The notes beneath the pieces are model-generated. The model did no database searches. It saw nothing but the letters and a program-made list of their open reading frames with translations, and was not told the DNA's origin. From Lineus longissimus (lineage: Eukaryota; Nemertea; Pilidiophora; Heteronemertea; Lineidae), in NCBI RefSeq assembly GCF_910592395.1, contig NC_088308.1, positions 21,901,501 through 21,965,500 of the forward strand: a DNA stretch of 64,000 nt, given 5' to 3'. Numbering within the stretch: position 1 is the first letter of the stretch; each line of letters begins with the position of its first letter. Below are positions 5,403 through 31,564 of the stretch, in pieces. A program made the position numbers and the translations under genes.

Positions 5403-8400
5403 TTAGTAACTTTTCAGGAAAACCTTCTTGCGCAGTGTTGCATATGGCAACGGATTCTGCTTCCCGACATTTACACTCCTCGGAATTTTCGCGTTTCCTT
5501 CGGCAACTTCCTCATTAACTTTGATCATGATGCTCATAAGGTCATCCCTGAAACAAAAAAAATTAAAAAGATCGTACTGACAGGAAGTTCAGCCATACCT
5601 TCAGGCACGGATGCAGGTCGGAAATGAGGGCCAAAGATAACCAACATTTTCTGAATCGTCCTTGATTTACAGCCAACTGCATAGAAAACAATTCAGATTC
5701 CAAATTGAGTGGGGGGGGGGGGGAAATTTCCTGAAACTGTGCCTACCCTGGAACGCAGAATAACTTGAGTGTGGGAATGGGCATAAGGGTGATGGGGCTG
5801 GGGTTATGATCGATCACCAAAGAAATAGGCCAACTCCAAGACTAGCACACAGCATACATACCTATCACAGTACTTATCTAGCATATCCGTCAACATAGTG
5901 ATGTACCATGATCCATGGGTTTCACTTCGGTATGACTTGAACCCTGGCAGTGTTGAGTACCCAATCAGGAAATCAGTTTCATTTGGTAGAATCAACGTCT
6001 TCATGTTTTTACTATCGTGCCGGAAACCCATCTGTTCTGTAGTTCCTTGGCAAGCTTGGATGAAGAACAGCTTCGGTTTTGCTCGTAGAGTCTTACAGTT
6101 AATACCTTTGAAATGGTAGGTAATATCGCGGATCTCAATTGCTTGACCATCTGTACCATAAATGCATCCTTCTGAGCCGTGCGACAAGATACAAAAGGCT
6201 AAACAGTGGTACTCCGAGTGGTTAACACTAGCAACCTCTTTTACAACGTCTATAATGTCGTCACCTGGAAGGTCCCTGTGCTTTTGAATCTTGAACTTCA
6301 GCTTCGTAAATGTCTTGCAGAGCCTGGCTGAAAAAACAAACCAAACGTTGATGAGTACCAAATGAATACACTATTTTGGGGTTCAAGAAAAAAAAATCAT
6401 GTACAGTATTTATTGTCTTTGTCCGATGTCTTCTCAAACCCAAGCTTGATATACATGTACATGTATCACGAGGCATTCGTATTTACTCATTTAGCCACGT
6501 ACTACATGCGAAATGCGAATTAGATGCGGCTCCTGAAGTTAGGAAAAAGATTTATTGTGTTCGACGGAAAGGTATGATCTGTCAGTCGTGACCATTCACT
6601 TTAGAAGAGAATTACAGAACGTACAAAGCATCTCCAAACTGTCATTGATAACGCCGTAATTACGAAGTGATGTACTTGTATCAAAAACAAATGACGGAAG
6701 TGCTCTTCAGAGAATGTTTTCTCTGAAAGGGGGTACTAACCTTCGTCACGATCACTCCCTAGTCGATTCTCCAACTTTGTCCCATCTTCACCTGGGTGGA
6801 ATTCCATGTTATTAATGATGACACACAGTCCTCGGGGGTTTGATGTGATCGTATAACATGGGAGTTCCTCAAGTTCCATCTTCTTCGTCCCCAGTAGTTG
6901 GTTAGCACTGCTCTCAAGTTTCACAGAGGATGCATCGCCACCCGATTCTCGAGAAGAGCTGGTATAAGTGGTATCTGTCAGGCCACTGTTTTCCCTTTGC
7001 CATTCCATGGACGGAGAACCACGGCCACCTTCAATAGGTTGGGAAGAGCTGGTTTGTGACTGGCCTCTCTGATCATGGCCATTTTGCCGTTCGACAGACG
7101 ATAGCTCACCACTATCTGTTGACTGGGAAGGTTCGGCCTCTGACTGTGCATCAAGAACTATCGGTAGTTTGATGGACGACGAATCACCTTCAGTTTCTGC
7201 ATGTTCATCAAGACAACTCGGTAGCTTTGCGGAAGATGGCTCACCACTTGGTTGTTGGGAAAGTTCGGTCTCTGCCTGTTCATCAAGAAAAATCGGTAGT
7301 TCCATAGACGACGAATCACCTTCAGACTGTTGGGTTGAATAGGCAGGTGCCTGCTCAAAATTACTGGTCTGTAGTTTCATAGACGACGAATCACCACCAG
7401 CAGGCTGGGCGGGACTGGTCTGTGCCTGCCCAAAATTACTGGTCTGTAGTTTCATAGACGACGAATCACCACCAGCAGGCTGGGCGGGACTGGTCTGTAC
7501 CTGTTCAAAATTACCAGTTTGTAGTTTCATAGACGACGAATCGCCACCAGTAGGTTGGACAGGACTGGTCTGTGCCTGTTCAAAATAACCATTCTGTAGT
7601 TTCATAGACGACGAATCGCCACCAGCAGGCTGTGCTGGACTGGTCTGTGCCTGTTCAAAATTACCAGTTTGTAGTTTCATAGACGACGAATCACCACCAG
7701 TAGGTTGGACAGGACTGGTCTGTGCCTGTTCAAAATTACTGGTCTGTAGTTTCATAGACGACGAATCGCCACCAGTAGGTTGGACAGGACTGGTCTGTGC
7801 CTGTTCAAAATTACTGGTTTGTAGTTTCATAGACGACGAATCACCACCAGCAGGCTGGGCGGGACTGGTCTGTGCCTGTTCAAAATTACCAGTCTGTAGT
7901 TTCATAGACGACGAATCACCACCAGTAGGTTGGACAGGACTGGTCTGTGCCTGTTCAAAATTACCAGTCTGTAGTTTCATAGACGACGAATCACCACCAG
8001 TAGGTTGGACAGGACTGGTCTGTGCCTGTTCAAAATAACCAGTCTGTAGTTTCATATACGACGAATCGCCACCAGTAGGTTGGACAGGACTGGCCTGTGC
8101 CTGTTCAAAGTTACTGCTCTGTAGTTTCATAGACGACGAATCGCCACCAGCAGGCTGTGCTGGACTGGTCTGTGCCTGTTCAAAATTACCAGTCCGTAGT
8201 TTCATAGACGACGAATCACCACCAGTAGGTTGGGCATTACTGCCGTGTGCCTGTTCAAAATGACTGCTCTGTAGTTTCATAGACGACGAATTGCCTCCAG
8301 CAGGTTTGGCATGACTGGCCTGTGCTTGTTCAAAATTACCAGTCTGTAGTTTCACAGACGACGAATTGCCACCAGCAGGTTTGGCATGACTGGCCTGTGC

Positions 8401-10139
8401 CTGTTCAAAATTACCGGTCTGTAGTTTCATAGACGACGAATTGCCACCAGCAGGCTGGGCATGACTGGTCTGTGCCTGTTCAAAATTACCAGTCTGTAGT
8501 TTCATAGACGACGAATTGCCACCAGCAGGCTGGGCATGACTGGTTTGTGCCTGTTCAAAATTACCAGTCTGTAGTTTCATCGACGACGAATCACCACCAG
8601 TAGGTTGGGCATGACTGGCCTGTGCCTGTTCAAAATGCATGTTCGGTAGTTTTGTAAACATTGAATTACCACCGGTAGGCTGGTTCGGGCTCATCTGTGC
8701 CTCTTCAAATTGACTGCTCTGTAGTTTCATCGACATTGAATCGCCACCAGTAGGTTTGGCATGACTGGCCTGTGCCTGTTCAAAATTACCAGTCTGTAGT
8801 TTCATAGACGACGAATCACCACCAGTTGCCCGGGCAGGGCTGGTTTGTGCCTGTTTAAAATTACCGCTCTCTAGTTCCGTAGATGATCGATCACAGTTGG
8901 ATAATGGATAATGCAGCTGTGATTGGTATGTGCTGGTCTCAGCGGCTGGATTTGAATGACATCTCATATATGATTCTTGAGAAGGGGGAACCGGTGTCAG
9001 TTCAAGACTCCTAGACTGTGTGGACTCGCTCTCGCCCTGTCTTGGATAGCCAATATACGGGATCGATGCTTGAGTGCCAAACTTGGGGATGGAATCTTCA
9101 TCGTCTGGTTGAACAGATTCTCCTAAATTTCTTCTTGGTTGCTTGCCTAGAACAAAAAGAGACATGTCAGATCAATAAAAACGACCTTGGCTTATCTGAC
9201 TTGTTGATGTATGATATATAAGGATATGTGGTACACAATGTAGAAATTCATGTTCATGTACGTTCTTGGAGTAGTGTTGTCACTCTGCAGTTAACATCTC
9301 TCCCAGATGCTGTCCAGACCTTTGCCTCGAATGTGTTTGCTGTGGCTTATCTTTCATATGTGCAAGTGACATTTTAGCAAAAAGCTTGAAATAAGCTAAA
9401 CCATTGAGTCTATAAAACATCCTACTAACCTAATATTATGTTTATTTTGTCCTCATATACTGCAACTGCTTCAATTTGCATTACTTTTCCCATCCTTTGC
9501 AGACACTTGATGATAAATTCATAGTCACCAAGTTTAATATGTTGTCTCCTGTAATGCAAGCACACGGGTGAAAATGATAACATTATGTCAATGAAAAAAC
9601 ACAAAAATTTTTTTCTACAGTTACCGCAGTCGTGTTGATATCATGTTATGTCAAACATTATGACCTCAACCCTTTGGCCGACACATATTCAAAATTATCA
9701 TTTTCAAATTCCCATGACTGTCTGGTCTTAAGCCTCTAGTTTTGGGAGGACGTGGTAAGGCAAATTGGGGTTAATAAGACAAGAGCCCTTGATTAGTCAA
9801 CGTCCAAGATTTTCTCTAGAAGCCTTAATATAAAGGCATTCATTAGCCGCAGTGCCAGCTCTGTTTATTGATACACGCCAATGACTCTGTTTATATTGAT
9901 ACACGCCAATGACAAATGGAGTAACGAATAGCTTTCTTTGAAATCCTTCCATCAACTTACTGTTCGAGCTCTTGCCAAACCTTTTCAAAGGTCTTGCATT
10001 TCTCTAAGTAGTAGGGTTGGATGGCTTTGAAAAATCCAATTTCATCCTTGAAACTCTCGAGTTCCTCCTTTTTAAGTTCACCCTTCAGGTAGAAAATAAG
10101 ATCTACCTGCAACTCCAAGCCTGGTGGGATGTCAGACAT
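5403..10139 (-). CDS. DED-containing caspase-8-like initiator caspase, copy A (complete)
   Basis: Five coding exons join in phase: 9961-10139, 9430-9548, 6741-9146, 5862-6327 and 5403-5547, giving 1104 residues. Exons 1-2 (about residues 8-98) form a six-helix death-effector-like fold, with an EELESFKDE stretch and a FEKVWQELEQ helix. Exon 3 encodes a hydrophilic linker of about 20 repeats of 25 residues (GGDSSSMKLQTGNFEQAQ-like), then the start of the protease domain (PRGLCVIINN). Exon 4 carries the catalytic His in LSHGSEG (about 951), the catalytic Cys in QACQG (about 994) and the S1-pocket SYR. Exon 5 is the p10 end with TLRKKVF. QACQG, SYR and FFIQ match caspase-8/10 rather than executioners, which usually have QACRG. 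The family is activated by dimerisation on adaptor platforms and triggers apoptosis. The linker is far longer than in known caspase-8, so the protein is over twice the usual length. The start is the first ATG of a DED exon that ends in a GTAAGT donor. Confidence 0.93.
7268..8880 (-). repeat. 75-bp coding minisatellite in caspase copy A exon 3
   Basis: About 20 head-to-tail copies of a 75-bp unit keep the caspase frame and encode 25-residue repeats with core GGDSSSMKLQTGNFEQAQ and a variable TSPVQPT or SHAKPA end. Neighbouring units differ by a few bases, and blocks of variants alternate, as expected from slippage or unequal exchange. At the C-terminal side the unit changes into a related form (MELPIFLDEQAETE, KLPSCLDEHAETE) that is amplified as a 132-bp unit in copies B and C. 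The sequence is Ser/Gln/Gly-rich with regular acidic and amide residues, and is probably disordered. Confidence 0.9.
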
Positions 10140-12773: not shown

Positions 12774-14213
12774 ATGCTGTCACCTTCAGGAAAAACCTTG
12801 GTTTGTTTTGCAACTCTGACGAGCCTTTTTGGAGTGGGTGAGTTTTGGACAAAATGAATCAGAATACCAAACATGTCCAATGAGATCTTGTCTTAGCCTA
12901 GCTTAGATGGAACTTCTTGGACGGAAAGCTATAGGCAGGGCTCCGACTACTCGGCGGAGAAACGGAGACTAATAGGGAGTTTTCGCAAAGCGCCCGAAAA
13001 GTCCACGTGAACGCCTACCCCATTATTGTTCGACTTCATCATCAGGATGTCAAACGATGGGATAGGCGTTCACGTTGGCGTTTCGGGGGACTTGCGTTCC
13101 TATTGACTCTCTTCTGTTTCTTTCAGTCTTTATTGTTTATCCGATCTACTAATATAGATCAGTATTGGTCATTGTAAGATATGGCGCATGTTTAAACCAA
13201 TGACTTCTCTTGCTTCCAGCATTATCTCTGAATTGCTATGTGTGTAGTATCGACAGTGATGCCGGTGACTTTGCGTGCAGGGATTCCCTCTCCTCTTACA
13301 AGACACAAACTTGCAGTGGTGTAGAGCATTACTGCATAGTCATGAAGACAACCAAAAGTGGTAAGTAAGTGTAACATATATGTATATACCCTAAACCCTT
13401 CTCCCAAATGCCGGAGAACCAGAACACCAAATCAAAATGGCTTCTTCTCATCTTCTTCTAGAAAGCTCCTCCACCCACTGGCAATAGTTTTAGTCTCAGC
13501 TTCGTTCTTTTAGGGTATCCTGTACAGGGATACAACAAGTTGGTCGGTTCAGACCCCACAACACCCTTAAAAAGAAGGGTTTTATAGCTTTTCAATCAAA
13601 AACCTTTTGGGGTTTTTCAGTCGACACAAATATGCCCCCCCCCCCCGAAGTTTTGCAGCCAAATGAAAAATCCTTAAAGATTCTTGAGCTTGTGAATAAC
13701 CTCAAAGGGTTTTTTATGTCCCAGAAAAACCTCTACGGGCTGCATATGTAATTATTTATGTTGGCTGAAAAAACCCTAAAAGGCTTTCTAGGAGCTCAAC
13801 AATCTTTGTTTTTAAGATTGTAATTCATTATTTCGTTCATTACAAATTACCGATTTGGAGGCAGAAATGGTGGCAGGCCTTCCGCCCACGTTTCGTTTTC
13901 GTTGGTTGGCACCAGGGGGAGATGGTCAAATCAAGTTTCTTTTTCGGAGACGTGGCTCGGTTTGCCTGACTTTTGCTAAAATCTCATTACGTTTTCATTT
14001 ATTCCAGATGGTTCCAAGACGTTTATCCGCGACTGCAGCCGTTACGGCCATGGCAATGACTGTTACACGTCAGTTGCCGGGGATTACACATGTGCTCATA
14101 CATGCACGTACGACGGATGCAATCTCGGGAATGCAGGCTCCACAACCATAGCGTCAGTCTTACTCCTGCTTGGAGCCTGTCTAACAGGATGTACTTTGTC
14201 CCTCCTCTGTTAA
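12774..14213 (+). CDS. Ly6/uPAR-type GPI-anchored three-finger protein, copy A
   Basis: Three exons join in phase: 12774-12837, 13220-13360 and 14008-14213, giving 136 residues. Exon 1 encodes a signal peptide (hydrophobic VCFATLTSLFGVA). The mature protein starts near LSLNCYVC, the usual opening of a Ly6 domain. Exon 3 ends the domain with CTYDGCN, followed by a small-residue GPI site (GNAGS) and a hydrophobic tail (ASVLLLLG) up to the stop. Ten or so cysteines lie in the three-finger spacing. Family members act at the cell surface as receptors or as modulators of channels and receptors; the specific partner here cannot be told. An AATAAA at 14255-14260 is a likely polyadenylation signal. 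A nearly identical second copy is at 29498-31014. Confidence 0.9.
12965..13111. mobile_element. MITE-like fold-back in Ly6 intron 1 (copy at 29712-29859)
   Basis: Long imperfect terminal inverted repeats face each other. CGCAAAGCGCCCGAAAAGTC and CACGTGAACGCCTACCCC on the left match the complement of GGGATAGGCGTTCACGTTGG and CGTTTCGGGGGACTTGCG on the right. A short non-palindromic centre separates them. There is no coding capacity. The size (about 150 bp) and the structure fit a non-autonomous DNA transposon. It lies in the first Ly6 intron and was duplicated along with the gene. Confidence 0.65.
13561..13815. repeat. GGTTTT/AAAACC-rich dispersed repeat in Ly6 intron 2
   Basis: The stretch alternates GGTTTTT and AAAACCCT blocks around a poly-C run (about 13633-13645). 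Similar blocks occur at about 2685-2825, 30361-30615 (the segmental copy) and 39135-39295. The shared phrases are AAAACCCTAAA and GAAAAACCTCT. The family is unidentified and probably a degenerate non-coding transposon. Confidence 0.5.
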
Positions 14214-14254
14214 ACATGTAAAGACTGTCAGGAGTCAGATGATGACTGAGAACA

Positions 14255-14857: not shown

Positions 14858-16908
14858 CGGCATGCTGAATCGTTTGAATGCAGAATTGCCGAATGACAAG
14901 ATTGTCCTATTAGGTGACCTAAACCTACACCTAGACATTCCTACGGACTCGTCGACACGCAAGTTTGGAGCTCTTCTTGATCAATTTAGCCTGATTCAGC
15001 ACGTTAAGGAAGCCACTCACATAGACGGTCATCTATTGGATCCTGTGATTTCACGAAGGGAAGACTCATCAGTCACTGACGTTTTTGTTAGTCGTCCATC
15101 AATATCTGACCACTTCGCGGTTCATTTCGTGCTGAATATGCGGAAACCACCTCTTCCAACCAAGGACATTACGTATCGAAGACAACATTGAAAATTTCTG
15201 CTCCGATTTGGCGGAAAATGTTGGTGAGATATCAGATGATATGTCATTATCAGAGTCAGTGAGTTGTTATCGAAAGTCGACAAAATTGAGGGCTCAAATG
15301 GGAAGGAACTTTTCAGTGCAGTAAACGACATCCTAGGCAAGCGTAAGACTGTGACCTTACGAGAACATTCCGATTCAGGAGATCACGCAGAACAATTCAA
15401 CAGTTTCTTCACTGAGAAGATCGAGAAAATTCATGATAGGCTGAAGGATAAAATGAAGGACAATGAATGCCATGTGAACCAAACGCCTTTTCAGGTCTGG
15501 GACTTAAGGTGCTGGAGCCGTGTACTGAAGAGGAACTAAGAAAAGTCCTTATGGCAGCACCGGCCAAGTCCTGCCGTCTAGATCCGATCCCTACCTGGCT
15601 CTTACGTAAATGTTTGAGCGTGCTACTTCCAGTGCTCGTTCGCATTATCAACAAGTCTCTCCTGCTAGGTGAAGTTCGTGCTTCTATGAAGCATGCTCTC
15701 ATTACACCTTTGCTGAAAAAGCCATCACTGGATCAAAATGAACTGTCAAATTACAGACCCGTATCGAACCTCACTTTCCTCTCTAAATTACTAGAGAGAG
15801 TGGTTGCACTGAGGCTGAAGCAGCACATGTCGTCAGAGGGGTTATATGAGCCGCACCAGTCGGCCTACCGTGAACACCATAGTACTGAAACAGTGTTAGT
15901 GAAAGTTGTCAATGATATTCTTTGTGCTCTTGACTCTCAAAACGAAGCGGTGCTTGTGCTTCTTGATTTGTCGGCTGCATTAGACACTGTGGACCATGCT
16001 CTCCTTTTGAGACGACTGCAGAACAGAATAGGACTCTCTGGCAGTGCACTGAAGTGGTTCTCGTCAGATCTCCATGACCGTATGGTCTCAGTGTGCGTAA
16101 ATGGATGTACATCAGACAGTGTTGCATTGTCAACTGGTGTCCTCAGGGCTCGGTATTGGGGCCAGTCCTTTTCAACGTGTACACATTGCCACTTGGAGAT
16201 GTGATGAGTGTCCATGATGTGCATTCCTACGAGATGTTTGCGAACGATAATCAGCTACTTGGAGTCTTCCCCAATGGAAATGTTAAACAGGGTTTGTCTT
16301 CTGTTGGAAATGTTGAATTCTGCATTCAAAGCATTGGAAGGTGGCTAGTTGCAAACAACCTATGTTTTAATGGTCCAAAAACAGAGTTTATGGCGATCTC
16401 CTCGACTAGACGAACTCCGTGCATCTCTACAATAACTGTCGATGGAGAAGTGATAAAGAGTTCGGATTTCCTACGAGATCTTGGTGGCTGGTTGGACAGT
16501 CACATGAACATGACTGTTCAAGTGAAGAAAGTCTGTAAAAGTGCATTTGCCAACTTGCACTCCATTAGGCGCATTCGAAAATATCTGGATGCTAACAGCA
16601 CCAAAAAGTTGGTGCATGCTTTGGTGACTTCTCGCTTGGACTATAATAACGCTCTGCTGCATGGTCTTCCTAAGATAACCATTGCTCCAATGCAAAGGGT
16701 TCAGAATGCAGCAGCCAGGCTTATTAGTAAAACGCGTAAACGGGACCATATAACACCGGTACTAAAGGAACTTCACTGGTTGCCAGTACACTTGCGCATT
16801 GAGTACAAAATCATCAACTTGACGCATAAAATCTTACATGGAAGGGCACCAGTTTACCTTGAACAGCTGGTTAAATGTCTGGACGCAAGGGCCCAACGCG
16901 CCGCGTAG
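14858..16908 (+). mobile_element. 5'-truncated CR1/L2-like LINE: endonuclease end and reverse transcriptase, decayed
   Basis: The element begins inside the endonuclease domain (KIVLLGDLNLHLD, then SISDHFAVHF). It continues into a reverse transcriptase with NYRPVSNLTFLSKLLERV, DTVDHALLLRRL and PQGSVLGPVLFNVYTLPLGD, then a C-terminal PRVQNAAARL-type region (MQRVQNAAARLI) and HWLPVHLRIEYKI. These are hallmarks of the CR1/L2/Jockey group. Frames change near 15190-15290, 15470 and 16130. The catalytic YADD box is altered to FANDNQL. It is therefore inactive. The element breaks at about 16908 and its 3' end resumes near 19538. It lies exactly at the junction between the two segmental copies. Confidence 0.9.
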
Positions 16909-17280
16909 CGGCAAAAAAGCGAAGCTGGCGAAACATTTATAACGGGTCACCGTCACTTATTATTGGACTTATAGCGCATTTACGGGGTTGCAACTATTTT
17001 GCTTTATAGTGTCACCAGGAAAGAAAAGCATGCGACATAACGCCGATCTATTTGTATAAAGTGATAATTGGAAGGTATATAGTAGGAAATATCAATAAAA
17101 TAATCATTCCATGTCGTCTTTTGAGGGCATTTTTGATTGTAAAAAATATATGTGTACGTCACCGTAGTCTCTGCAATGATAATTTTATCAGAGCAGTCTC
17201 GCGCAAGTAGAAGTTCTTTACCTACTAGTTCTTCACTTATTAGTCTCAACGTCTGGCGCAAAGCCAGACGTTTTCCATTA

Positions 17281-17413
17281 CGATTTCACTACGATGTTTG
17301 ACAATAAGGAGCAGTGCGCGAGATATGCTAATGAGCAGACTTCCCTCGCTTGAGTTTCTGAAGAATGTTCCATATCGCGCTAAGCTCATCACTGCTGATT
17401 ATGACAGGCGTGC
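17281..17413 (+). repeat. 133-bp direct repeat, left copy
   Basis: Matches 18841-18973 with about ten substitutions. The copies are separated by 1560 bp, start to start. Both start at CGATTTCACTACG and end at GACAGGCGTGCA, after which the flanks differ. They could be long terminal repeats of a small element, but TG...CA ends and flanking target duplications were not seen. Confidence 0.65.
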
Positions 17414-18840
17414 AGCGGTAGGTATCTGCTCCCCAACTTCCACCCTAATACGGTACAATAAGTTACCATTTGATGAGAATGGGACAATGCCCTCACTGTG
17501 TATGGAGTCATAGGGATAAGAAGACATTATTCATTAGTGTTGGTACAAGTGATTTTGCCCAAAAAGCATGCGCATTCAAAAAACAAAATATGCAAGGTAT
17601 CACGTACATGTAACATGACCATGACGACGTGCAGAAAGTGCACTGGCCAGTGCATACCCTATGGCTATGTATAGTAAACATGGTAAACATGAACAACATC
17701 ATTATTCATCGGCAGTTCATTTTACTCCGAGCTTTTCCTGAAACATATTGCCATGATGATTAGGCCTACCATGTACCATGACCAATAACGGCACTAGATC
17801 ATGTAGATGTCCACAAGTTCACATGAACCGTATAATCCCGCATAATCCCGCATGGCGCATGTGGGGCATGCGTCTAAACCAAAGCCCCAAAATCACTTGT
17901 TTTGGTCTATTTCACTTGTGTTTCCCCCGTCTCCCAGTCCATAATACATTTACAGTTTACAATCCCCGATCATGGCCCAACAAAAGGTCATCGGTTGACT
18001 AAAGCCAAGGAACACAACTGTTCAATGGATTTATAGTTGAATGCGATCAAACTACATCTTTTCAATCGTGGATTGTAAATTTAACCCCATGGGCCTAGGG
18101 AAGGCCCTATAACAATACTTTCGACACAGTTATTATCTCCGCTGCCTCCACCATGTTACACACAGTGCTCACTGCTGATTCTAAAATGCGCCACCTAGTC
18201 AATTGCACTATCGTCATCACCTCATCATACTTCATTGACATTACAGGCACACATTGACATAGACCACTGTTGCAATCAACGACACAGTCGCTATCCAAGT
18301 AGCATTATAGAGGTAATTATCATTATCATACCTCATTAGCATGTGAACCAATCGCGTCGCGTCCTTTGCGATCACGGCAAAGCCTCATGGAATAATGTCG
18401 TTCAACGTTGAATAATTTTTCATATTCCATGCCTACAACTTCAATTTCTTCATAATCCATGGCTAGAAGTTCAATACTAATATAATATCCAAGATAAAGT
18501 TACAAGAAGTAGTCAATAGGGGTCTCTCACCTCTCACTGTATGTCCACACTATTCACGCTTGTACGAGGAATACATTCAATGCTGAATCTAACAACACCC
18601 AGTGCCCTTACTCTGTATATTAGTCACTGGAAGATGGCCCATTTCACTCCTTGCTTCTACTTCACCTATAGTCTCATTGCAAACGCCTCAGTTCTATGAT
18701 ATCACATTCACTTTCAGCTGTCATGCAACGCAACAACTGTGCTATCTGCCATCGCACATCAACGAAGAAGTGCAGCCGCCCACATTCCACCTCACGTCTG
18801 TCCGACCAGCTGCAATCCTCGAGGACGCCACACTGTACCA

Positions 18841-18973
18841 CGATTTCACTACGATGTTTGACAAGAAGGAGCAGTGCGCGAGATAGGCTAATGAGCAGAC
18901 TTACCTCGCTTGAGTTTCGGAAGAATGTTTCATATCGCGCTACGCTGACCACTGCTGACCATGACAGGCGTGC
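18841..18973 (+). repeat. 133-bp direct repeat, right copy
   Basis: Partner of 17281-17413. Frames in this copy read through, for example around TMFDKKEQCAR, so the repeat may derive from a coding part of a transposon, but no family is recognised. Confidence 0.65.
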
Positions 18974-19499
18974 ATTGGACTGGTACAGGTTGGAACTGAA
19001 CATTGAATATGCTGGTGGTGACGCTTTCTGATGAGAAGTTGGTCGTGACTGATGCAGTATCCTTGGACTTGTCCACAGCATCGTTCAATCATTGCTCTCT
19101 GAGCTGCCTTGATTCTGTACCCAAATACTAAGACCAAATGCCTGTTGACTGTGCTTTAAGAGAGACTGGCGCCATGCCTAGAGATATGACTGACCCCTAT
19201 TGGCAAATTTGTATGACTTTATCTTGCCTACCTAGCTGCTGCCTATAGTCTCCCTTTAACTGCGGAACACTTCAAAGTCGATAAAATGCCATGTTCCACC
19301 TTTTAATGTGTTCAGACTGCCATTTTCAAAATAATCAAGTCAGGACACTGCCTTCTAGTCTCATAATAAATTTTGCTTTCCTCAATATATAATAACATTT
19401 CTTCTTCTTCAATGCTTTCATCATTCCAAACTTCTCCTCCTCTGACTTTTACAGGGGTACAGTCATGGCAATCAAAACCCAAATACTGAGACCAAATGC

Positions 19500-19563
19500 C
19501 TGTTGACTGTGCTTTAAGAGAGACTGGCGCCATGCCTAGTCTCTCTTAAAGCACAGTCAACAG
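19500..19563. repeat. Perfect 26-bp inverted repeat with 12-base loop
   Basis: The left arm 19500-19525 (CTGTTGACTGTGCTTTAAGA and on) is perfectly complementary to the right arm 19538-19563. The loop is GGCGCCATGCCT. The left arm also occurs upstream, near 19142-19167, as part of a 62-bp direct repeat. The right arm leads into LINE 3' sequence, so the fold-back marks the edge of the block inserted in the LINE. Confidence 0.85.
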
Positions 19564-19921
19564 ACACCAACCCCCTCAGACTCAGAAACCACAAACGCCC
19601 AACCCTTCCTGCTACCCTAATACTTCTGGATTGCCATCGTACAACGCGTTCGATGGACGAAGGTTCCTCGAAATTGGCCGTAAAACGAACAAAGACACTT
19701 TACGGGGATCGCAGTTTCTCAGCGTCCTCGGCACGGCTGTGGAATAAGTTGCCGACGGAACTAACTGCGATTGACAATCAGGACACATTTAGGAAGCGCT
19801 TGAAGTGTTGGCTGTTCGAGAGGCATTATCAGTGACAATGAGTGGAAATCAACAAATAGCGCTTAAACAGCAATGCGGTCTGAGTAGCGCTATACAAATA
19901 CTAGACATTATTTTATTATTA
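19538..19921 (+). mobile_element. 3' end of the CR1/L2-like LINE with ATT tail
   Basis: It encodes the usual C-terminus of this LINE class (YGDRSFSASSARLWNKLP, then FRKRLKCWLF), followed by a GCGCTATACAAATA 3' UTR motif and a short (ATT)n tail ending at 19921-19924. The tail abuts the truncated caspase exon 3 of copy B. Read on the minus strand, the tail gives TAA stop codons and AATAAA at 19912-19917. The left limit is uncertain because the inserted block begins there. Confidence 0.88.
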
Positions 19922-20775
19922 TTAAGGTTCGGTCTCTGCCAGTTCATCAAGAAAAATCGGTAGTTCCATAGACGACCAATCACCTTCAGTTTCTGCATAT
20001 TCATCAAGACAACTCGGTAGCTTTGCGGAAGATGGCTCACCACTTGGTTGTTGGGAAGGTTCGGTCTCTGCCAGTTCATCAAGAAAAATCGGTAGTTCCA
20101 TAGACGACAAATCACCTTCAGTTTCTGCATATTCATCAAGACAACTCGGTAGCTTTGCGGAAGATGGCTCACCACTTGGTTGTTGGGAAGGTTCGGTCTC
20201 TGCCAGTTCATCAAGAAATATCGGTAGTTCCATAGACGACCAATCACCTTCAGTTTCTGCATATTCATCAAGACAACTCGGTAGCTTTGCGGAAGATGGC
20301 TCACCACTTGGTTGTTGGGAAGGTTCGGTCTCTGCCAGTTCATCAAGAAATATCGGTAGTTCCATAGACGACCAATCACCTTCAGTTTCTGCATATTCAT
20401 CAAGACAACTCGGTAGCTTTGCGGAAGATGGCTCACCACTTGGTTGTTGGGAAGGTTCGGTCTCTGCCAGTTCATCAAGAAATATCGGTAGTTCCATAGA
20501 CGACCAATCACCTTCAGTTTCTGCATATTCATCAAGACAACTCGGTAGCTTTGCGGAAGATGGCTCACCACTTGGTTGTTGGGAAGGTTCGGTCTCTGCC
20601 AGTTCATCAAGAAATATCGGTAGTTCCATAGACGACCAATCACCTTCAGTTTCTGCATATTCATCAAGACAACTCGGTAGCTTTGCGGAAGATGGCTCAC
20701 CACTTGGTTGTTGGGAAGGTTCGGTCTCTGCCAGTTCATCAAGAAATATCGGTAGTTCCATAGACGACGAATAAC
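19922..20775 (-). repeat. 132-bp tandem repeat array in copy B exon 3
   Basis: Seven units, the last partial, each encode 44 residues: GDWSSMELPIFLDELAETEP followed by a SQQPSGEPSSAKLPSCLDEY part. Units are almost identical, so amplification is recent. Copy A has only one diverged equivalent and copy C has four units, so this array expanded after the segmental duplication. Confidence 0.9.
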
Positions 20776-23371
20776 CTTCAGACTGATGGGTTGAATAGGC
20801 AGGTGCCTGCCCAAAATTACTGGTCTGTAGTTTCATAGACGACGAATCACCACCAGTAGGTTGGGCAGGACTGGTCTGTACATGTTCAAAATTACCGGTC
20901 TGTAGTTTCATAGACGACGAATCGCCACCAGCAGGCTGTGCGGGACTGGTCTGTGCCTGTTCAAAATTACCAGTCTGTAGTTTCATAGACGACGAATCGC
21001 CACCAGTAGGTTGGACAGGACTGGCCTGTGCCTGTTCAAAGTTACTGCTCTGTAGTTTCATAGACGACGAATCGCCACCAGCAGGTTTGGCATGACTGGT
21101 CTGTGCCTGTTCAAAATGACTGCAATATAGTTTCATAGACGACGAATCGCCACCAGCAGGCTGGGTATGACTGGCCTGTGCCTGTTCAAAATAACCAGTC
21201 TGTAGTATCATCGACCACGAATCACCACCAGTAGGTTGGGCATGACTGGCCTGTGCCTGTTCAAAATGCATGTTCGGTAGTTTTGTAAACATTGAATTCC
21301 CACCGGTAGGCTGGTTCGAGCTCATCTGTGCCTCTTCAAATTGACTGCTCTGTAGTTTCATCGACATTGAATCGCCACCAGTAGGTTTGGCATGACTGGA
21401 CTGTGCCTGTTCAAAATGACCAGTCTGTAGTTTCATAGACGACGAATCACCACCAGCAGGTTTGGCATGACTGGCCTGTGCCTGTTTAAAATGACTGCTA
21501 TGTAGTTTCATAGACGACGAATCGCCACCAGCAGGCTGGGTATGACTGGCCTGTGCCTGTTCAAAATTACCAGTCTGTAGTATCATCGACCACGAATCAC
21601 CACCAGCAGGTTTTGCATGACTGGCCTGTGCGTGTTCAAAATTACCAGTCTGTAGTTTCATCAACGACGAATCACCACCAGTAGGTTGGGCATGACTGCC
21701 GTGTGCCTGTTCAAAATGACTGCTCTGTAGTTTCATAGACGACGAATTGCCATCAGCAGGTTTGGCATGACTGGCCTGTGCCTGTTCAAAATTACCGGTC
21801 TGTAGTTTCATAGACGACGAATCGCCACCAGCAGGCTGGGTATGACTGGCCTGTGCTTGTTCAAAATAACCAGTCTGTAGTTTCATCGACCACGAATCAC
21901 CACCAGTGGCAGTATTTTGGGCATGACTGGCCTGTGCCTGTTCAAAATGCATGTTCCGTAGTTTTGTAAACATTGAATTACCACCGGTAGGCTGGTTCGG
22001 GCTCATCTGTGCCTCTCCAAATTGACTGCTCTGTAGTTTCATCGACATTGAATCGCCACCAGTAGGTTTGGCATGACTGGCCTGTGCTTGTTCAAAATTA
22101 CCAGTCTGTAGTTTCATAGACGACGAATCACCACCAGTTGCCCGGGCAGAGCTGGTTTGTGCCTGTTTAAAATTACCTGCTTAAAATTATGCGGCTGTGA
22201 TTGGTATGTGCTGGTCTCAGCGGCTGGATTTGAATGACATCTCATATATGATTCTTGAGAAGGGGGAACCCGTGTCAGTTCAAGACTCCTAGACTGCGTG
22301 GACTCGCTCTCGCCCTGTCTTGGATAGCCAATATTCGGGATCGATGCTTGAGTGCCAAATTTGGGAATGGAATCGTCATCGTCTGGTCGAACAGATTCTC
22401 GTAAATATCTCCTTGGTTGCTTGCCTAGAACAAAAAGAGACATGTCAGATCAATAAAAACGACATTGGCTTATCTGACTTGTTGATGTATGATATATAAG
22501 GATATGTGGTACACAATGTAGAAATTTATGTTCATGTACGTTCTTGGAGTAGTGTTGTCACTCTGCAGTCAACATCTCTCCCAGATGTTGTCCAGAACTT
22601 TGCCCCGAATGTGTTTGCTGTGGCTTATCTTTTATATGTGCAAGTGACATTTTAGCAAAAAGCTTGAAATAAGCTAAACCATTGAGTCTATAAAACATCC
22701 TACTAACCTAATATTATGTTTGTTTTGTCCTCATATTCTGCAACTGCTTTAATTTGCTTTTCTTTTCCCATCCTTTGCAGGCATTTGATGATAAATTCAT
22801 AGTCACCAAGTTTAATATGTTGTCTCCTGTAAAGCAAGCACACAGGTGAAAATGATAACATTATGTCAATGAAAAAACACCAAACTTTTTTTCTACAATT
22901 AGTCGTGTTGATATCATGTTATGTCAAACATTCTGACTTCAAACCTATTCAAAATTATCATTTTCAAATTCCCATGACTTTCTGGTCCTAAGCCTCTAGT
23001 TTTGGGAGGACGTGGTAAGGCAAATTGGGGTTAATAAGACAAGAGTCCTTGATTAGTCAACGTCCAAGATTTTCTCTAGAAGCCTTAATATAAAGGCATT
23101 CATTAGCCGCAGTGCCAGCTCTGTTTATTGATACACATCAATGACAAATGGAGTAACCAATAGCTTTCTTTGAAATCCTTCCATCAACTTACTGTTCGAG
23201 CTGTTGCCAAACCTTTTCAAAGGTCTTGCATTTTTCTAAGTAGTAGGGTTGGATGGCGTTGAAAAATCCAATTTCATCCTTGAAACTCTCGAGTTCCTCC
23301 TTTTTAAGTTCACCCTTCAGGTAGAAAATAAGATCTACCTGCAACTCCAAGCCTGTTGGTATGTCAGACAT
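19922..23371 (-). pseudogene. DED-caspase copy B: no protease domain, frameshifted, promoterless
   Basis: Exon 1 (23193-23371), exon 2 (22708-22826) and the start of exon 3 (22424 leftwards) are intact and spliceable. In exon 3 a deletion joins SQPHN to NFKQ out of frame. Translation then stops at 22114, giving about 202 residues (DED plus about 100). The 25-residue repeats continue in the other frame from 22117 to about 20780. They are followed by seven units (the last partial) of a 132-bp repeat (MELPIFLDELAETEP type) ending in the LINE tail. The protease exons are absent. Only about 40 bp of the exon 1 flank remain before LINE DNA, so its own promoter is gone. A short DED protein driven from elsewhere is possible but unsupported. 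Confidence 0.85.
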
Positions 23372-23411
23372 TGTTGGTCGGAATCTCTTGAAAATGAAAA
23401 AGAAATTGTAC

Positions 23412-23548
23412 ACATTTAGGAAGCGCTTGAAGTGTTGGCTGTTCGAGAGGCATTATCAGTGACAATGAGTGGAAATCAACAAATAGCGCTTAAACAGCAA
23501 TGCGGTCTGAGTAGCGCTATACAAATACTAGACATTATTTTATTATTA
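23412..23548 (+). mobile_element. Second copy of LINE 3' end
   Basis: This stretch is nearly identical to 19785-19921: the last codons of the LINE ORF, its 3' UTR and the ATT tail. It arose by the 3.6-kb tandem duplication, not by a new insertion, because its left side joins directly to the caspase exon 1 flank. On the minus strand it supplies the stop (23549-23551) and AATAAA (23539-23544) for copy C. Confidence 0.88.
23539..23544 (-). promoter_or_regulatory. LINE-derived AATAAA downstream of copy C stop
   Basis: The antisense of the LINE ATT tail reads TAATAATAATAAAATAATG. This gives an in-frame TAA at 23549-23551 and a canonical AATAAA a few bases later. The signal sits unusually close to the stop codon. 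The same arrangement is at 19912-19924 for copy B. Use of the signal is inferred, not shown. Confidence 0.5.
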
Positions 23549-26500
23549 TTAAGGTTCGGTCTCTGCCAGTTCATCAAGAAAAATCGGTAGTTCCATAGAC
23601 GACCAATCACCTTCAGTTTCTGCATATTCATCAAGACAACTCGGTAGCTTTGCGGAAGATGGCTCACCACTTGGATGTTGGGAAGGTTCGGTCTCTGCCA
23701 GTTCATCAAGAAAAATCGGTAGTTCCATAGACGACCAATCACCTTCAGTTTCTGCATATTCATCAAGACAACTCGGTAGCTTTGCGGAAGATGGCTCACC
23801 ACTTGGTTGTTGGGAAGGTTCGGTCTCTGCCAGTTCATCAAGAAATATCGGTAGTTCCATAGACGACCAATCACCTTCAGTTTCTGCATATTCATCAAGA
23901 CAACTCGGTAGCTTTGCGGAAGATGGCTCACCACTTGGTTGTTGGGAAGGTTCGGTCTCTGCCAGTTCATCAAGAAATATCGGTAGTTCCATAGACGACG
24001 AATAACCTTCAGACTGATGGGTTGAATAGGCAGGTGCCTGCCCAAAATTACTGGTCTGTAGTTTCATAGACGACGAATCACCACCAGTAGGTTGGGCAGG
24101 ACTGGTCTGTACATGTTCAAAATTACCGGTCTGTAGTTTCATAGACGACGAATCGCCACCAGCAGGCTGTGCGGGACTGGCCTGTGCCTGTTCAAAATTA
24201 CCAGTCTGTAGTTTCATAGACGACGAATCGCCACCAGTAGGTTGGACAGGACTGGCCTGTGCCTGTTCAAAGTTACTGCTCTGTAGTTTCATAGACGACG
24301 AATCGCCACCAGCAGGTTTGGCATGACTGGTCTGTGCCTGTTCAAAATGACTGCAATATAGTTTCATAGACGACGAATCGCCACCAGTAGGTTGGGTATG
24401 ACTGGCCTGTGCCTGTTCAAAATGCATGTTCCGTGGTTTTGTAAACATTGAATTACCACCGGTAGGCTGGTTCGAGCTCATCTGTGCCTCTTCAAATTGA
24501 CTGCTCTGTAGTTTCATCGACATTGAATCACCACCAGCAGGTTTGGCATGACTGACCTGTGCCTGTTTAAAATGACTGCTATGTAGTTTCATAGACGACG
24601 AATCGCCACCAGCAGGCTGGGTATGACTGGCCTGTGCCTGTTCAAAATTACCAGTCTGTAGTATCATCGACCACGAATCACCACCAGTAGGTTTTGCATG
24701 ACTGGTCTGTGCCTGTTCAAAATTACCAGTCTGTAGTTTCATAGACGACGAATCACCACCAGCAGGTTTGGCATGACTGGCCTGTGCCTGTTCAAAATGA
24801 CTGCTATGTAGTTTCATAGACGACGAATTGCCACCAGCAGGTTTTGCATGACTGGCCTGTGCGTGTTCAAAATTACCAGTCTGTAGTTTCATCAACGACG
24901 AATCACCACCAGTAGGTTGGGCATGACTGCCGTGTGCCTGTTCAAAATGACTGCTCTGTAGTTTCATAGACGACGAATTGCCATCAGCAGGTTTGGCATG
25001 ACTGGCCTGTGCCTGTTCAAAATTACCGGTCTGTAGTTTCATAGACGACGAATCGCCACCAGCAGGCTGGGTATGACTGGCCTGTGCCTGTTCAAAATAA
25101 CCAGTCTGTAGTTTCATCGACCACGAATCACCACCAGTGGCAGTAGGTTGGGCATGACTGGCCTGTGCCTGTTCAAAATGCATCTTCCGTAGTTTTGCAA
25201 ACATTGAATTACCACCGGTAGGCTGGTTCGGGCTCATCTGTGCCTCTCCAAATTGACTGCTCTGTAGTTTCATCGACATTGAATCGCCACCAGTAGGTTT
25301 GGCATGACTGGCCTGTGCTTGTTCAAAATTACCAGTCTGTAGTTTCATAGACGACGAATCACCACCAGTTGCCCGGGCAGGGCTGGTTTGTGCCTGTTTA
25401 AAATTACCGCTCTCTAGTTCCGTAGATGATCGATCACAGTTTCTTTCGGACTGTTCAATATGTCCACTACCAGTAAGTGGAACACGACCTGGCAGCTGGA
25501 ATTGGCTGACCTCATAATCGATCTTTGCACCGACTCGTTTTGATGAATAAGCATCTCGACCTGTTAAATGGAAAGGACTGCCCACTTCTGGAAAAAGGTC
25601 CTCACTCCGTAGTTTTCGGAGAAGACTAGTCACTGGTGGGAATAATGGATTATGCGGCTGTGATTGGTATGTGCTGGTCTCAGCGGCTGGATTTGAATGA
25701 CATCTCATATATGATTCTTGAGAAGGGGGAACCCGTGTCAGTTCAAGACTCCTAGACTGCGTGGACTCGCTCTCGCCCTGTCTTGGATAGCCAATATTCG
25801 GGATCGATGCTTGAGTGCCAAATTTGGGAATGGAATCGTCATCGTCTGGTCGAACAGATTCTCGTAAATATCTCCTTGGTTGCTTGCCTAGAACAAAAAG
25901 AGACATGTCAGATCAATAAAAACGACATTGGCTTATCTGACTTGTTGATGTATGATATATAAGGATATGTGGTACACAATGTAGAAATTTATGTTCATGT
26001 ACGTTCTTGGAGTAGTGTTGTCACTCTGCAGTCAACATCTCTCCCAGATGTTGTCCAGAACTTTGCCCCGAATGTGTTTGCTGTGGCTTATCTTTTATAT
26101 GTGCAAGTGACATTTTAGCAAAAAGCTTGAAATAAGCTAAACCATTGAGTCTATAAAACATCCTACTAACCTAATATTATGTTTATTTTGTCCTCATATA
26201 CTGCAACTGCTTCAATTTGCATTACTTTTCCCATCCTTTGCAGACACTTGATGATAAATTCATAGTCACCAAGTTTAATATGTTGTCTCCTGTAATGCAA
26301 GCACACGGGTGAAAATGATAACAGTATGTCAATGAAAAAACACAAAACATTTTATCTACAGTTACCGCAGTCGTGTTGATATCATGTTATGTCAAACATT
26401 CTGACCTCAACCCTTTGGCCGACACATATTCAAAATTATCATTTTCAAATTCCCATGACTGTCTGGTCTTAAGCCTCTAGTTTTGGGAGGACGTGGTAAG

Positions 26501-26852
26501 GCAAATTGGGGTTAATAAGACAAGAGCCCTTGATTAGTCAACGTCCAAGATTTTCTCTAGAAGCCTAAATATAAAGGCATTCATTAGCCGCAGTGCCAGC
26601 TCTGTTTATTGATACACGCCAATGACAAGTGGAGTAACGAATAGCTTTCTATGAAATCCTTCCATCAACTTACTGTTCGAGCTCTTGCCAAACCTTTTCA
26701 AAGGTCCTGCATTTCTCTAAGTAGTAGGGTTGGATGGCTTTGAAAAATCCAATTTCATCCTTGAAACTCTCGAGTTCCTCCGTTTTAAGTTCACCCTTCA
26801 GGTAGAAAATAAGATCTACCTGCAACTCCAAGCCTGGTGGGATGTCAGACAT
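23549..26852 (-). CDS. DED-repeat protein without protease domain (caspase copy C)
   Basis: Three exons join in phase: 26674-26852, 26171-26289 and 23549-25887. They give an open frame of 878 residues ending at a TAA inside the LINE tail. Residues 1 to about 98 are the same DED as copy A. Exon 3 then carries an N-terminal segment about 66 residues longer than in copy A (around VGSPFHLTGRDAYSS), about 18 of the 25-residue repeats, and four of the 44-residue units. The PRGLCVIINN start of the protease domain, the His and Cys motifs and both downstream exons are absent. No internal stop interrupts more than 2.3 kb of exon 3. The full upstream flank of copy A is present. DED proteins without protease activity (FLIP type) usually modulate caspase-8-like complexes; that role here is inference. 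It may alternatively be a young pseudogene. Confidence 0.75.
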
Positions 26853-29497
26853 TGTTGGTCGGAATCTCTTGAAAATGAAAAAGAAATTGTACCGTTTTTG
26901 CCCCTAACCTCGCAATCAAAAGAATTCAAACCTACATTATACATACACAAAGCCCGCTCGCACGTAGGTCTTTAGAAATTCCAGTTATTTTACTGGCTTT
27001 TCAAAGGTCTTGATGACATCGTCCCCACAAAACATATTTCATGGGGGTCATTAGGCCTAATCCAGCAACGGCAAATACACGTAATGGAAAATATAAGGAA
27101 TAGCATTCCGCGACGTTACTATTTATAGCTCACAAGGTCATTTGAATAAGATATTGATGACGTTTTAGTCACGTGACAGTCGGACATCGACACTTATTTC
27201 TACGCATTTGAGCTTATTTCAAAGTCAATTATCTTTGACCCTGCATTGTTTTTGCATGAATGATACCATAGAGTCAGAGAGAGAAATATTCAGAACAATT
27301 ATGTAGTATTTCCAACACTCGGACATGTGCCAGATTGAATCTAACTGCCCTGGTTAGAAAGCCTGAATCCACTACGAAACCGCATGTTTGTCCGACATTG
27401 CCTGTAATTCAACCATGGGGAAATAGAGGGCAGCAGCTGCAGTGACCTCATTATCGCGGAATGCTATTGGATACAATGAGAAGAACGCCAGAGCTGGCAA
27501 CAAAAAGTGTCAGTGTGGTTAAAATGTATTTCTTCAGCAAACACTGCGAATAGCTGCTGTACAGTTAGTTGTCTAAATCAATAGTTCGAGGTTTTCATCG
27601 ATTTTTTATTGCACGCACACGGTATATAAACTAATCTTCCGGTAACCGTCAATGGCCACAGAGAATCTTTACATGATAAGATGCATGAGAAATTATTCCC
27701 TCCCCTTGAAATACCGATGACCGTCCCATAGTCCGAAGGTGCGTTGGTCCGAAGACCCGCTAGTCCGAAAAGTAGGCCTACACTATAAAATTACTTTAAA
27801 AAAGATCCCGCTAGTCTTATTTTCCGCTTTTCCGGAATCAGGGAAAAGATCTACTAATCTGAAATAAAAAAATTTGACCCGCTCATCCGAAATCAGGGAG
27901 AAAAGCCGCTAATCCGAAAAATACACTGTCATTTGAAAGAAGTACATATTTTTTAATGACTCTGATGATTATTTTATGGTGAGAAAGCTGGCTTAGTGTA
28001 ATATATATTACCGAACTTTCAGGATTGGGCCTACATAAATCATGAGTCGTCCTCAATTCGCATCAAATATATCATAGACGATATGTTCAGGCATACATGA
28101 TATATCCAGATATTTCAACAATGACTGGCATATTAGCTGGAATGGCGGTTTCCCAGAATTAGGACAGTCTTGTAGGCATTATACTAAGTGCCGATAGGCC
28201 TACCTCTCGACCTTGTGTATACAGGAAGAGTGGGAAATACATAGGGTCAGTATTTAACAAATCCTGCATAGAAGAATGCACAGAATTTAGACAGGGTTTC
28301 ACATAGTGCAATCATAATGTCACCCTGTGGGATGATGTCCTGTATACAGAACTACTGTATAGACATACAGAACATCACCCAGGGTGACATTCTGCGTCAC
28401 GGCCAACGATCACCCTTACACTCCGGACGCGGTGGACTGGCTTCGACCCTCACCACATGACAGCATGAACAGGATGACGAAATGGACTGCCCCGGGAGTC
28501 TCATATCACCCAAGCCGGGAGATATTTTGCCTCCCTGCTGCATGGCGTTCAGCAACACCCAAAACGACCCTTATCACTTAATGAAGGCAATAAACGGACG
28601 TAGTGAAAGGAATTACTTACAGCAGCGTTGAGATATTCAATTTTTGGCTTGCTTCGAACCACTTATAGTGTAAAACGATAATATTAACGCGGAAATGCCA
28701 AATGGGAATTCCCCATGACGCATGCGAAGCGTGCGTCATCTACGAACACGACGAGTAACGACCAGACCGATTTGGGAGGGAAAATTGATGATTTGAGTGC
28801 CTGTGCAGCAATATTACATTGTTGATAGGCGAAAAAACGTCGGATAACCATTATATATTTTTCTTTTTTCAAACTCTACATACGATTAGAAATGGATCCA
28901 TGTGATAACCTCATTGCTTTTATTGATCGGCGATAAATATTGAAAACTCGATTTCCAACAGCGGTAAACAATAAAATATCTCTGGCACCATCGGAATCCC
29001 CCCTCCCCCAACATCCCCAAGTTGGCACCCAGCTCTGTTCGTCGGCCGGTCCCTCATAAGAAGTAGTATAAGTACAATGATGAGAATGTTTTGGTCGGGA
29101 ATAAAAAATGAAGGTTGAATAAAAATTGACGTCCCCTTCCTTAAGGAGACATTTGCTGCTAACGCATGCTAACAGTGTACATGAACGTATTTGAATAAGT
29201 GACCGTCGACAAATAAAATCCAGCGCAATGGGGCCCAAGCGACCGGGTCTATTTGTATTTTTTGAAGTTATGTTAACAATATACATACTGGCCAACGATA
29301 AAGAAACTTCCCTTAAGTTAATGTAACGGTTAACCATTTAATGAATAGGGGGACTTCTGGTTTAATTCACTGTCAAACTTGCCACATTGAACCTTCTCTC
29401 ATGTTGATAATCTCCTACCCGAATTTCCCTTCCCGTCGCAACCAAAACGCCGAGGTGTGAAACAGGTCTGAATTTCGTAAACGGAATAGTAGCAACC
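26853..29497. promoter_or_regulatory. Divergent intergenic region between caspase C and Ly6 C
   Basis: Near-identical copy of 10140-12773, with small differences such as an inserted GGCCTA and lost single bases. It keeps the head-to-head arrangement of the DED-repeat gene and the second Ly6 gene. No promoter motif could be fixed. It includes the hairpin at 28316-28391. Confidence 0.55.
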
Positions 29498-31014
29498 ATG
29501 CTGTCACCTTCAGGAAAAACCTTGGTTTGTTTTGCAACTCTGACGAGCCTTTTTGGAGTGGGTGAGTTTTGGACAAAATGAATCAGAATACCAAACATGT
29601 CCAATGAGATCTTGTCTTAGACTAGCTTAGATGGAACTTCTTGGACGGAAAGCTATAGGCAGGGCTCCGACTACCTGAATTAAGCGGTGGGAATTACTCG
29701 GCAGAGAAACGGAGACTAATAGGGAGTTTTCGCAAAGCGCTCGAAAAGTCCACGTGAACGCCCACCTCATTATTGTTCGACTTCATCATCAGGATGTCAA
29801 ACGATGGGATAGGCGTTCACGTTGGCGTTTCGGGTGACTTGCGTTCCTATTGGCTCTCTTCTGTTTCTTTCAGTCTTTTGTTTATCCGATCTACTAATAT
29901 AGATGTTTAAACCAATTACTTCTCTCGCTTCCAGCATTATCTCTCAATTGTTATGTGTGTAGTATCGACAGTGATGCCGGTGACTTTGCGTGCAGGGATT
30001 CCCTCTCCTCTTACAAGACACAAGCTTGCAGTGGTGTAGAGCATTACTGCATAGTCATGAAGACAACCAAAAGTGGTAAGTAAGTGTAACATACATGTAT
30101 ATACCCTAAACCCTTCCCCCAAATGCCGGAGAACCAGAACACTAGTACCGGTACCAGTACTCCGAATTCGCTTCACGAAATTGGCTCTGGATCGAAATGT
30201 ATATAAACACCAAATCAAAATGTCTCCTTCTCATCTTCTTCTACAAAGCTCCTCCACCCACTGGCAATAGTTTTAGTTTCAGCTGAGTGGTGGTGGTATG
30301 GCTTTCGTTCTTTTAGGGCACCCTGTACGGGGAGACAACAAGTTGGTCGGTTCAGACCCCACAACACCCTTAAAAAGAAGGGTTTTATGGCTTTTCAATC
30401 AAAAACCTTTTAGGGTTTTTCAGTCGACACAAATATGCCCCCCCCCCCGAAGTTTTGCAGCCAAATGAAAAATCCTTAAAGATTCTTGAGCTTGTGAATA
30501 ACCTCAAAGGGTTTTTTATGTCCCAGAAAAACCTCTACGGGCTGCATATGTAATTATTTATGTTGGCTGAAAAAACCCTTAAAGGCTTTCTAGGAGCTCA
30601 ACAATCTTTGTTTTTAAGATTGTAATTCATTATTTCGCTCATTACAAGTTAACGATTTGGAGGCAGAAATGGTGGTAGACCGTCAGCTCACGTTTCGTTT
30701 TCATTGGTTGGCACCAGGGGGAGATGGTCAAATCAAGTTTCTTTTTCGGGACGTGGCTCGGTTTGCCTGACTTTTGCTAAAATCTCATTACGTTTTCATT
30801 TATTCCAGATGGTTCCAAGACGTTTATCCGCGACTGCAGCCGTTACGGCCATGGCAATGACTGTTACACGTCAGTTACCGGGGATTACACATGTGCTCAT
30901 ACATGCACGTACGACGGATGCAATCTCGGAAATGCAGGCTCCACAACCATAGCGTCAGTCTTACTCCTGCTTGGAGCCTGTCTAACAGGATGTACTTTGT
31001 CCCTCCTCTGTTAA
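29498..31014 (+). CDS. Ly6/uPAR-type GPI-anchored three-finger protein, copy C
   Basis: Exons 29498-29561, 29935-30075 and 30809-31014 join in the same phases as copy A and give 136 residues. The signal peptide is unchanged. The domain differs by very few residues (for example KTQACSG for KTQTCSG, and SVTGDY for SVAGDY). All cysteines, CTYDGCN and the hydrophobic GPI tail are kept, so both copies look functional. The AATAAA is at 31056-31061. Introns hold the same fold-back element and GGTTTT-rich repeat as copy A. The low divergence points to recent duplication or gene conversion. Confidence 0.9.
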
Positions 31015-31564
31015 ACATGTAAAGACTGACATGAGTCAGATGATGACTGAGAACAAATAAAGTTAGTCATAAAATTTCACAATTTTATTTACTATAATAA
31101 TTCAGAAAATGGCTGCTTGTTGGACATGTTGGAATTATTTGAATTTACAGACTTGACGTCACGCGATCTTTGTTTTGCATTATCCAATATTCTTTCTTTC
31201 TTGCTATTATGCTTGATTGTATATCTTGCGTTTATCTAATGCTAGGTTTAATTCATCAAACGTCTTCCAATCTTTCCAGCTAGGTGATTCATATGTGTTT
31301 TACAAAGCATTTCCATAATGTATAATGTTCAGTATATTCGTGATCAGTTCTCAAACATATCAAAAGTGACCAACCATGTACTTGTACTATGTATATGTAT
31401 GCATGAAAATACAATTCATCCATCCCGGGTGAAGTCTATTACAAAAACGCCCAGTATCTCTGTGATGAAATAAAGTTTCTGAATGAAGTTACTCAATACT
31501 CATCTGATAATTTTAAGCACACTCTGAGCAAATTCAACTACAGGTGAGTATTTTAGAACCTTGA

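Follow-up and report, generated by a model that had tools for sequence, protein, structure and literature searches.

How a caspase gene can acquire a relative that keeps its death effector domain (DED) and carries no protease is the question raised by a locus of the nemertean Lineus longissimus. The locus lies in a stretch of 64,000 nucleotides (contig NC_088308.1 of assembly GCF_910592395.1, positions 21,901,501 to 21,965,500, forward strand), referred to here as the window, in whose coordinates all positions are given. It holds a complete caspase gene (copy A), a partial copy with a broken frame (copy B) and a partial copy with an open frame (copy C), together with a long interspersed nuclear element (LINE). 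Going by the sequence, copy C is probably an open, recombinant partial duplicate of copy A that arose through a LINE-mediated tandem duplication.

Copy C (26852-23549, minus strand) has three exons, and its frame of 878 codons is intact, the spliced model being free of internal stops. Exon 1 (26674..26852) provides the start codon and the first part of the DED (Pfam match of the product at E=1.7e-5, under the curated cut-off), and exon 2 (26171..26289) provides the remainder, with 0 of 119 bases different from copy A. Both introns retain their GT and AG. Exon 3 (23549..25887) consists of a linker, a 75-bp repeat array, a 132-bp repeat array and the terminal TAA. It is open over 2339 nt in this frame, with 24 and 74 stops in the other two forward frames and 40, 28 and 33 in the reverse frames. 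The repeats comprise 17 units of 25 or 27 aa and 3.5 units of 132 bp, giving a repeat-bearing tail of nearly 780 residues beyond the DED. The stop codon (TAA, 23551-23549) is followed 4 bases on by AATAAA (23544-23539), and both reside within the antisense (ATT)n tail of a LINE, of which 141 bp are present at this copy (23410..23550, sense on the plus strand). An (AAT)n tract supplies a stop in just one frame of three. The original prediction had described a copy that keeps the DED, the promoter-side flank and more than 2.3 kb of open exon 3, ending at a stop from an antisense ATT tail with AATAAA shortly after; this anatomy is borne out, with the flank extending to 31668.

Copy C is not a caspase on domain searches, as Pfam places no Peptidase_C14 in its exon 3 and tblastn recovers no caspase exon outside copy A in the window. 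Six Pfam families are listed for this exon, two of them above their cut-offs (NRBF2_MIT, 4.2e-9; NCH3, 2e-7). These two are taken as probable matches to repeat composition, and there is no death domain among the families listed. A protein search with the whole of copy C left none of 5106 candidates at E<=10; both A and C thus seem to be absent from that database at 483-1536 aa. Relative to copy A, exon 3 of C has a net 198 nt (66 codons) of extra coding sequence at 25442-25642 (minus strand), and the same place is deleted in copy B. Calling this difference a gain or a loss was dropped, there being no outgroup.

Copy A (5403..10139, minus strand) is the complete DED-repeat-caspase gene. Its five exons in the spliced model (10139-9961, 9548-9430, 9146-6741, 6327-5862 and 5547-5403) encode 1104 aa, which comprise a single DED-like domain followed by an extended linker rich in repeats and then by the caspase domain. 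The predicted product is a caspase, with a Peptidase_C14 domain (PF00656, E=1.2e-54 in Pfam) that contains the catalytic His and Cys; the alignment to caspase-8 (1i4e) spans query residues 19-257, with SHG and QACQG present. The solved structures that match this domain best by sequence are caspase-8 and caspase-3. Among the matches listed for copy A (120 of 405, with protein lengths of ~214-680 aa), the nearest named proteins are caspase-8/10-like proteins of Branchiostoma, Glandiceps and Lingula at 44-46% identity. Four named Branchiostoma rows (44-46%) fall within the first seven matches listed, and one unnamed protein reaches 47%. Used in tblastn against the window, the last 260 residues of A matched exons 4 and 5 of this copy together with the final part of its exon 3, and elsewhere just two matches were obtained (E 2.6 and 4.9).

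The linker of copy A, encoded by exon 3 (9146-6741, minus strand), is ~760 residues long and is largely made of 25-residue repeats (75-bp unit, 21.2 copies). A repeat linker of this length would be unusual for an initiator caspase. The repeat units mostly end in Gly-Gly-Asp/Asn before Ser, at 20 places in A and 17 in C, and these places are putative cleavage sites.

The predicted DEDs of the three copies score 27.3 bits in A (4.5e-6), 25.4 bits in C (1.7e-5) and 30.0 bits in B (6.3e-7) against the Pfam model PF01335, all of them under its curated cut-off. The label is supported for copy A by its position ahead of a caspase-8-like domain. A PDB sequence search with the DED returned 15 sequences at E<=10, none of which is a DED protein. 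Copies A and C share the same residue at 97 of the 99 codons compared. There are two nonsynonymous and no synonymous differences between A and C, compared with eight and four between A and B, and ten and four between B and C. A comparison of dN/dS in the DED between A and C had been proposed as a test of constraint; it was run, and its two changes are too few to call either way. With the linker near neutral as well, dN/dS was rejected as a test. Decay of the DED in copy B as a sign of constraint on that of copy C was likewise rejected, since Pfam scores B highest.

The surroundings of copies A and C are duplicated too. The flank of A matches the region upstream of C in two aligned pieces (8891-14867 against 25630-31668), and it extends beyond the promoter, to 14867 at A and 31668 at C. 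Within this flank lies an open, three-exon Ly6/uPAR-like gene on the plus strand, at 12774..14213 beside A (PF17064, E=8.7e-7) and at 29498..31014 beside C (gene model). The two Ly6/uPAR-like genes stand head-to-head with the caspase copies, and their predicted proteins differ at two residues (T/A and A/T). The protease-less frame had been placed next to the full caspase. The 878-residue frame and its near-identical DED stand, whereas the adjacency does not: 16.7 kb separate the start codon of A from that of C, and a Ly6-like gene, the LINE and copy B lie in this interval.

The homology between A and C stops within a few bases of the start of the LINE (14868..19923, plus strand), a 5′-truncated and broken element that bridges the flank of A and exon 3 of copy B. 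The element begins (~14868) within its endonuclease domain, of which a piece is matched by PF14529 at E=2.4e-4, under its cut-off. The reverse transcriptase (PF00078) is found in two frames, and the coding sequence as a whole is spread over at least three. At its 3′ end is the (ATT)n tail, which abuts exon 3. Some 2.6 kb of apparently non-LINE DNA lies inside the element (16900-19550, plus strand, limits by eye). This insert includes a 135-bp direct repeat (17280-17414 and 18840-18974), and a motif repeated in both orientations occurs near 19.1-19.6 kb.

Copy B (19922..23371, minus strand) has exons at 23371-23193, 22826-22708 and from 22424 on. Exons 1-2 and a long exon 3 are thus present, and the upstream flank is gone save for ~40 bp. 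The frame is broken by a deletion of ~232 bp near 22183, leaving 202 aa before a stop. No target-site duplication is visible at the LINE, the longest string common to its 25-bp flanks being 4 bp. By its anatomy the arrangement is that of a LINE-mediated tandem duplication, with a 5′-truncated LINE at the junction, its 3′ tail on the target and no target-site duplication.

The ends of B and C match over 603 bp with four mismatches (19783-20385 and 23410-24012), a segment made up of the LINE tail and 132-bp repeats. The tail at C (23410-23550) corresponds to 19783-19923 at B. At B it runs on into the long plus-strand element, whereas at C it is cut after 141 bp and joined to the 5′ untranslated region (UTR) of B with a 2-bp overlap. 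Since the tail is common to both copies and cut at C, the LINE junction belongs to an ancestor of B and C. An insertion of the LINE into copy C itself was rejected on the same ground, as the 141 bp of tail at C are a duplicate fused to the 5′ UTR of B. The original prediction, in which a LINE tail had converted copy C, has to be given up in this respect.

A three-way alignment indicates that copy C is itself a recombinant, A-like in its upstream region and exons 1-2, and of B type from a switch point after exon 2 (26096..26185, minus strand) through intron 2 and on to the array. Across the 690 columns that start in the 5′ UTR and finish with exon 2, 24 substitutions group A with C against B, 8 group A with B and 2 group B with C. 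From the switch point to the deletion of B (536 columns) the corresponding counts are 0, 0 and 19, and C is identical to B. The contrast in site types on either side is strong (chi-square p=1.6e-10); gap columns, two columns grouping A with C at the edge of the deletion and everything beyond the deletion are left out of this count. Overall, A and C diverge by 1.9% (113/5897 columns), and two sequence types, 3.5-4.6% apart, can be distinguished among the copies. A tract of low divergence between C (26406..28679, minus strand) and A (9665-11953) runs from the upstream side through exon 1 into intron 1. Within it 19 of 2260 columns differ, versus 94 of 3637 outside. None of 100 shuffles was as strong, although the grid used to scan the shuffles was coarser than that applied to the data. 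Constraint on the promoter could add to the low divergence of this tract.

The proposed origin can be laid out in three steps. Target-primed reverse transcription of the LINE would have started in exon 3 of the caspase gene, and the 5′ end of the new LINE copy would have been ligated at a break on the downstream side of the Ly6-like gene. The segment from exon 3 to the Ly6-like gene would thereby be duplicated, with a 5′-truncated LINE left at the junction. The result would be a second caspase copy without the protease, for which the LINE tail provides the stop codon and possibly the poly(A) signal. A short tandem duplication from the LINE tail to the 5′ UTR, at 2 bp of microhomology, would then have produced B and C. 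Finally, an exchange with A-type sequence would have given C its A-type upstream side and DED. If expressed, C would be a DED-only partner that enters the DED assemblies of A and brings no protease, as FLIP-S does with caspase-8. A bolder version of this history, a one-stroke germline LINE duplication that made a DED-only paralog with a ready stop and poly(A) signal, with gene conversion matching its DED and promoter to A, is distinctly unlikely.

The same anatomy can be reached by other routes. An ordinary, larger tandem duplication may have created two complete caspase-Ly6 pairs, after which a LINE inserted in exon 3 of the second copy and removed exons 4-5 together with the DNA between the genes. 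Such a history would leave the same junctions as are seen now, but it requires one extra event, and tblastn over the window detects no trace of another exon 4 or exon 5; this route appears rather unlikely. The three copies could also be two haplotypes of a very heterozygous animal joined in tandem, given the divergence between A and C and the two sequence types. The heterozygosity of some marine invertebrates spans 1.9%. Nevertheless, the window holds no N, the contig bearing the ZIP protein of the window measures 29.4 Mb, and simple haplotig joining would not readily yield three unequal copies with distinct junctions, arrays and LINE content; this explanation is improbable. Several observations weigh against a LINE-mediated duplication followed by exchange, or against the significance attached to its product. 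The timing is in conflict, as fewer differences separate B from C in the 3′ half (0/536, tail 4/603) than A from C in the 5′ half (10/690), which calls for at least two exchanges. Damage to the LINE could predate its insertion. All three DED scores are under the curated cut-off of 35.9, the DED of A alone is weakly matched (best E 0.0031, 120 homologues listed), and the DED of B, as the best of the three in Pfam, does not support its decay. The array periods of C, 75 and 132 bp, are both multiples of 3, so an open unit yields an open array; moreover, turnover of units can clear lesions from tandem arrays, and B has one lesion despite its missing upstream flank.

These last points bear on what copy C is today. 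About evenly poised is the reading of C as a young dead or neutral partial duplicate, whose open frame follows from its youth and from repeat periods divisible by 3. Its sister copy B is frame-broken, informative sites in the DED are few, and pN/pS in exon 3 is near neutral (0.81 for A-C, 0.74 for A-B and 0.79 for B-C), in alignments that cross repeat arrays with uncertain register; in the B-C comparison 26 of the 38 differing codons (194-269) form one stretch apparently out of register. Nothing firm on selection would follow from these ratios. On the other side, the splice sites and a long A-type flank are retained, and under a rough neutral model exon 3 of C should have gathered 3.1-6.0 frame lesions after the split, against none observed in 2339 nt (zero-lesion probability 0.046 to 0.0026), whereas the LINE of the same junction is spread over at least three frames. 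The lesion count is a hint only, because the model ignores array turnover and B, without the upstream flank, has just one lesion. A maintained DED-only regulator or decoy of A, matched to it by gene conversion as a DED counterpart of CARD16/CARD17, is a doubtful alternative. It would fit the 97 shared residues in 99 DED codons and a low-divergence tract that spans the upstream side and exon 1. Conversion between CASP1 and CARD16/17 has been inferred and is predicted to preserve homotypic binding (PMC11383037), and protease-less FLIP-S/R and caspase-10G products exist (PMC4558505). The single exchange tract is nonetheless one observation and possibly due to chance. As to its product, C is quite possibly expressed but neutral, though this falls just short of an even chance; that it gives no stable product is a lesser possibility, and that it has been kept for a DED-only partner function appears unlikely.

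If C is expressed, the locus would show a protease-less caspase brake arising by one retrotransposon-linked rearrangement, with sequence exchange preserving its match to the target in the way proposed for CARD16/17. The broken B, the open C and the complete A could then be compared side by side in one animal.

Elsewhere in the window, a tandem array with a 64-bp unit (34425-34970, 8.5 copies) adjoins an open frame resembling a G protein-coupled receptor (35008-35883, minus strand). An actin-like open frame lies at 38027-38779 (minus strand; PF00022, E=1e-54), and one at 57732-58670 (plus strand) opens with a homeodomain-like VWFQNRRRR stretch, noted by eye. Rfam gave no matches and ARAGORN no tRNAs in the window.

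Among known systems, amphioxus (Branchiostoma) caspase-8 is among the nearest protein matches listed for copy A. It differs in architecture, as bbtCaspase-8 has a pair of DEDs (PMC3196919) and copy A one DED with a long repeat linker. The FLIP-like layout suggested by the original prediction holds in part. The short forms of c-FLIP (FLIP-S and FLIP-R) and caspase-10G resemble C in having a DED without a protease; FLIP-S/R are dominant negatives towards procaspase-8, and caspase-10G consists of DEDs only (PMC4558505). FLIP has two DEDs, however (PMC4558505), and these short products, each with two DEDs, are splice forms, whereas C is a gene copy of its own with a single DED. With one DED stretch and no pseudo-caspase in Pfam or tblastn, C is not a c-FLIP (CFLAR). 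FADD, DEDD, DEDD2 and PEA-15 also have one DED (PMC4558505) and no protease, but C, unlike them, derives from a caspase and carries a repeat tail.

For the rearrangement, the parallel is somatic LINE-1 activity. The joining of LINE-1 cDNA to an upstream break produces a deletion without target-site duplication, and its joining to a downstream break on the sister chromatid produces a tandem duplication, for which there is a tumour report and a model (PMC7058536). Both that duplication and the one described here have a LINE at a direct tandem duplication junction. The published case is somatic and spans 22.6 Mb, while the present one is apparently germline, involves another LINE type and covers a few kb; the statement on absent target-site duplications in that report concerns deletions. 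The downstream-break model would fit the A-C layout in one event, and a duplication with a LINE-linked deletion would fit it too.

The nearest genetic parallel of C appears to be primate CASP1/CARD16. The CARD16/17/18 genes (COP, INCA, ICEBERG) lie beside CASP1 and, like C, are linked caspase duplicates with a death-fold domain and no protease (PMC3775265, PMC11383037). At least three instances of gene conversion with CASP1 are inferred for CARD16/17 in a preprint, in which conversion is predicted to hold decoy and enzyme matched (PMC11383037). The layout of a CARD-only protein is found in C, a linked caspase duplicate that has its death-fold domain and has lost the protease. No CARD is listed in C by Pfam, its death-fold match being a DED. 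C differs further in its repeat tail and its LINE-tail stop, in being known here from sequence alone, and in that the close protein matches listed for the caspase locus are invertebrate, not primate. Copy C would fit as a DED-based case of a known layout, the protease-less caspase duplicate represented by CARD16/17.
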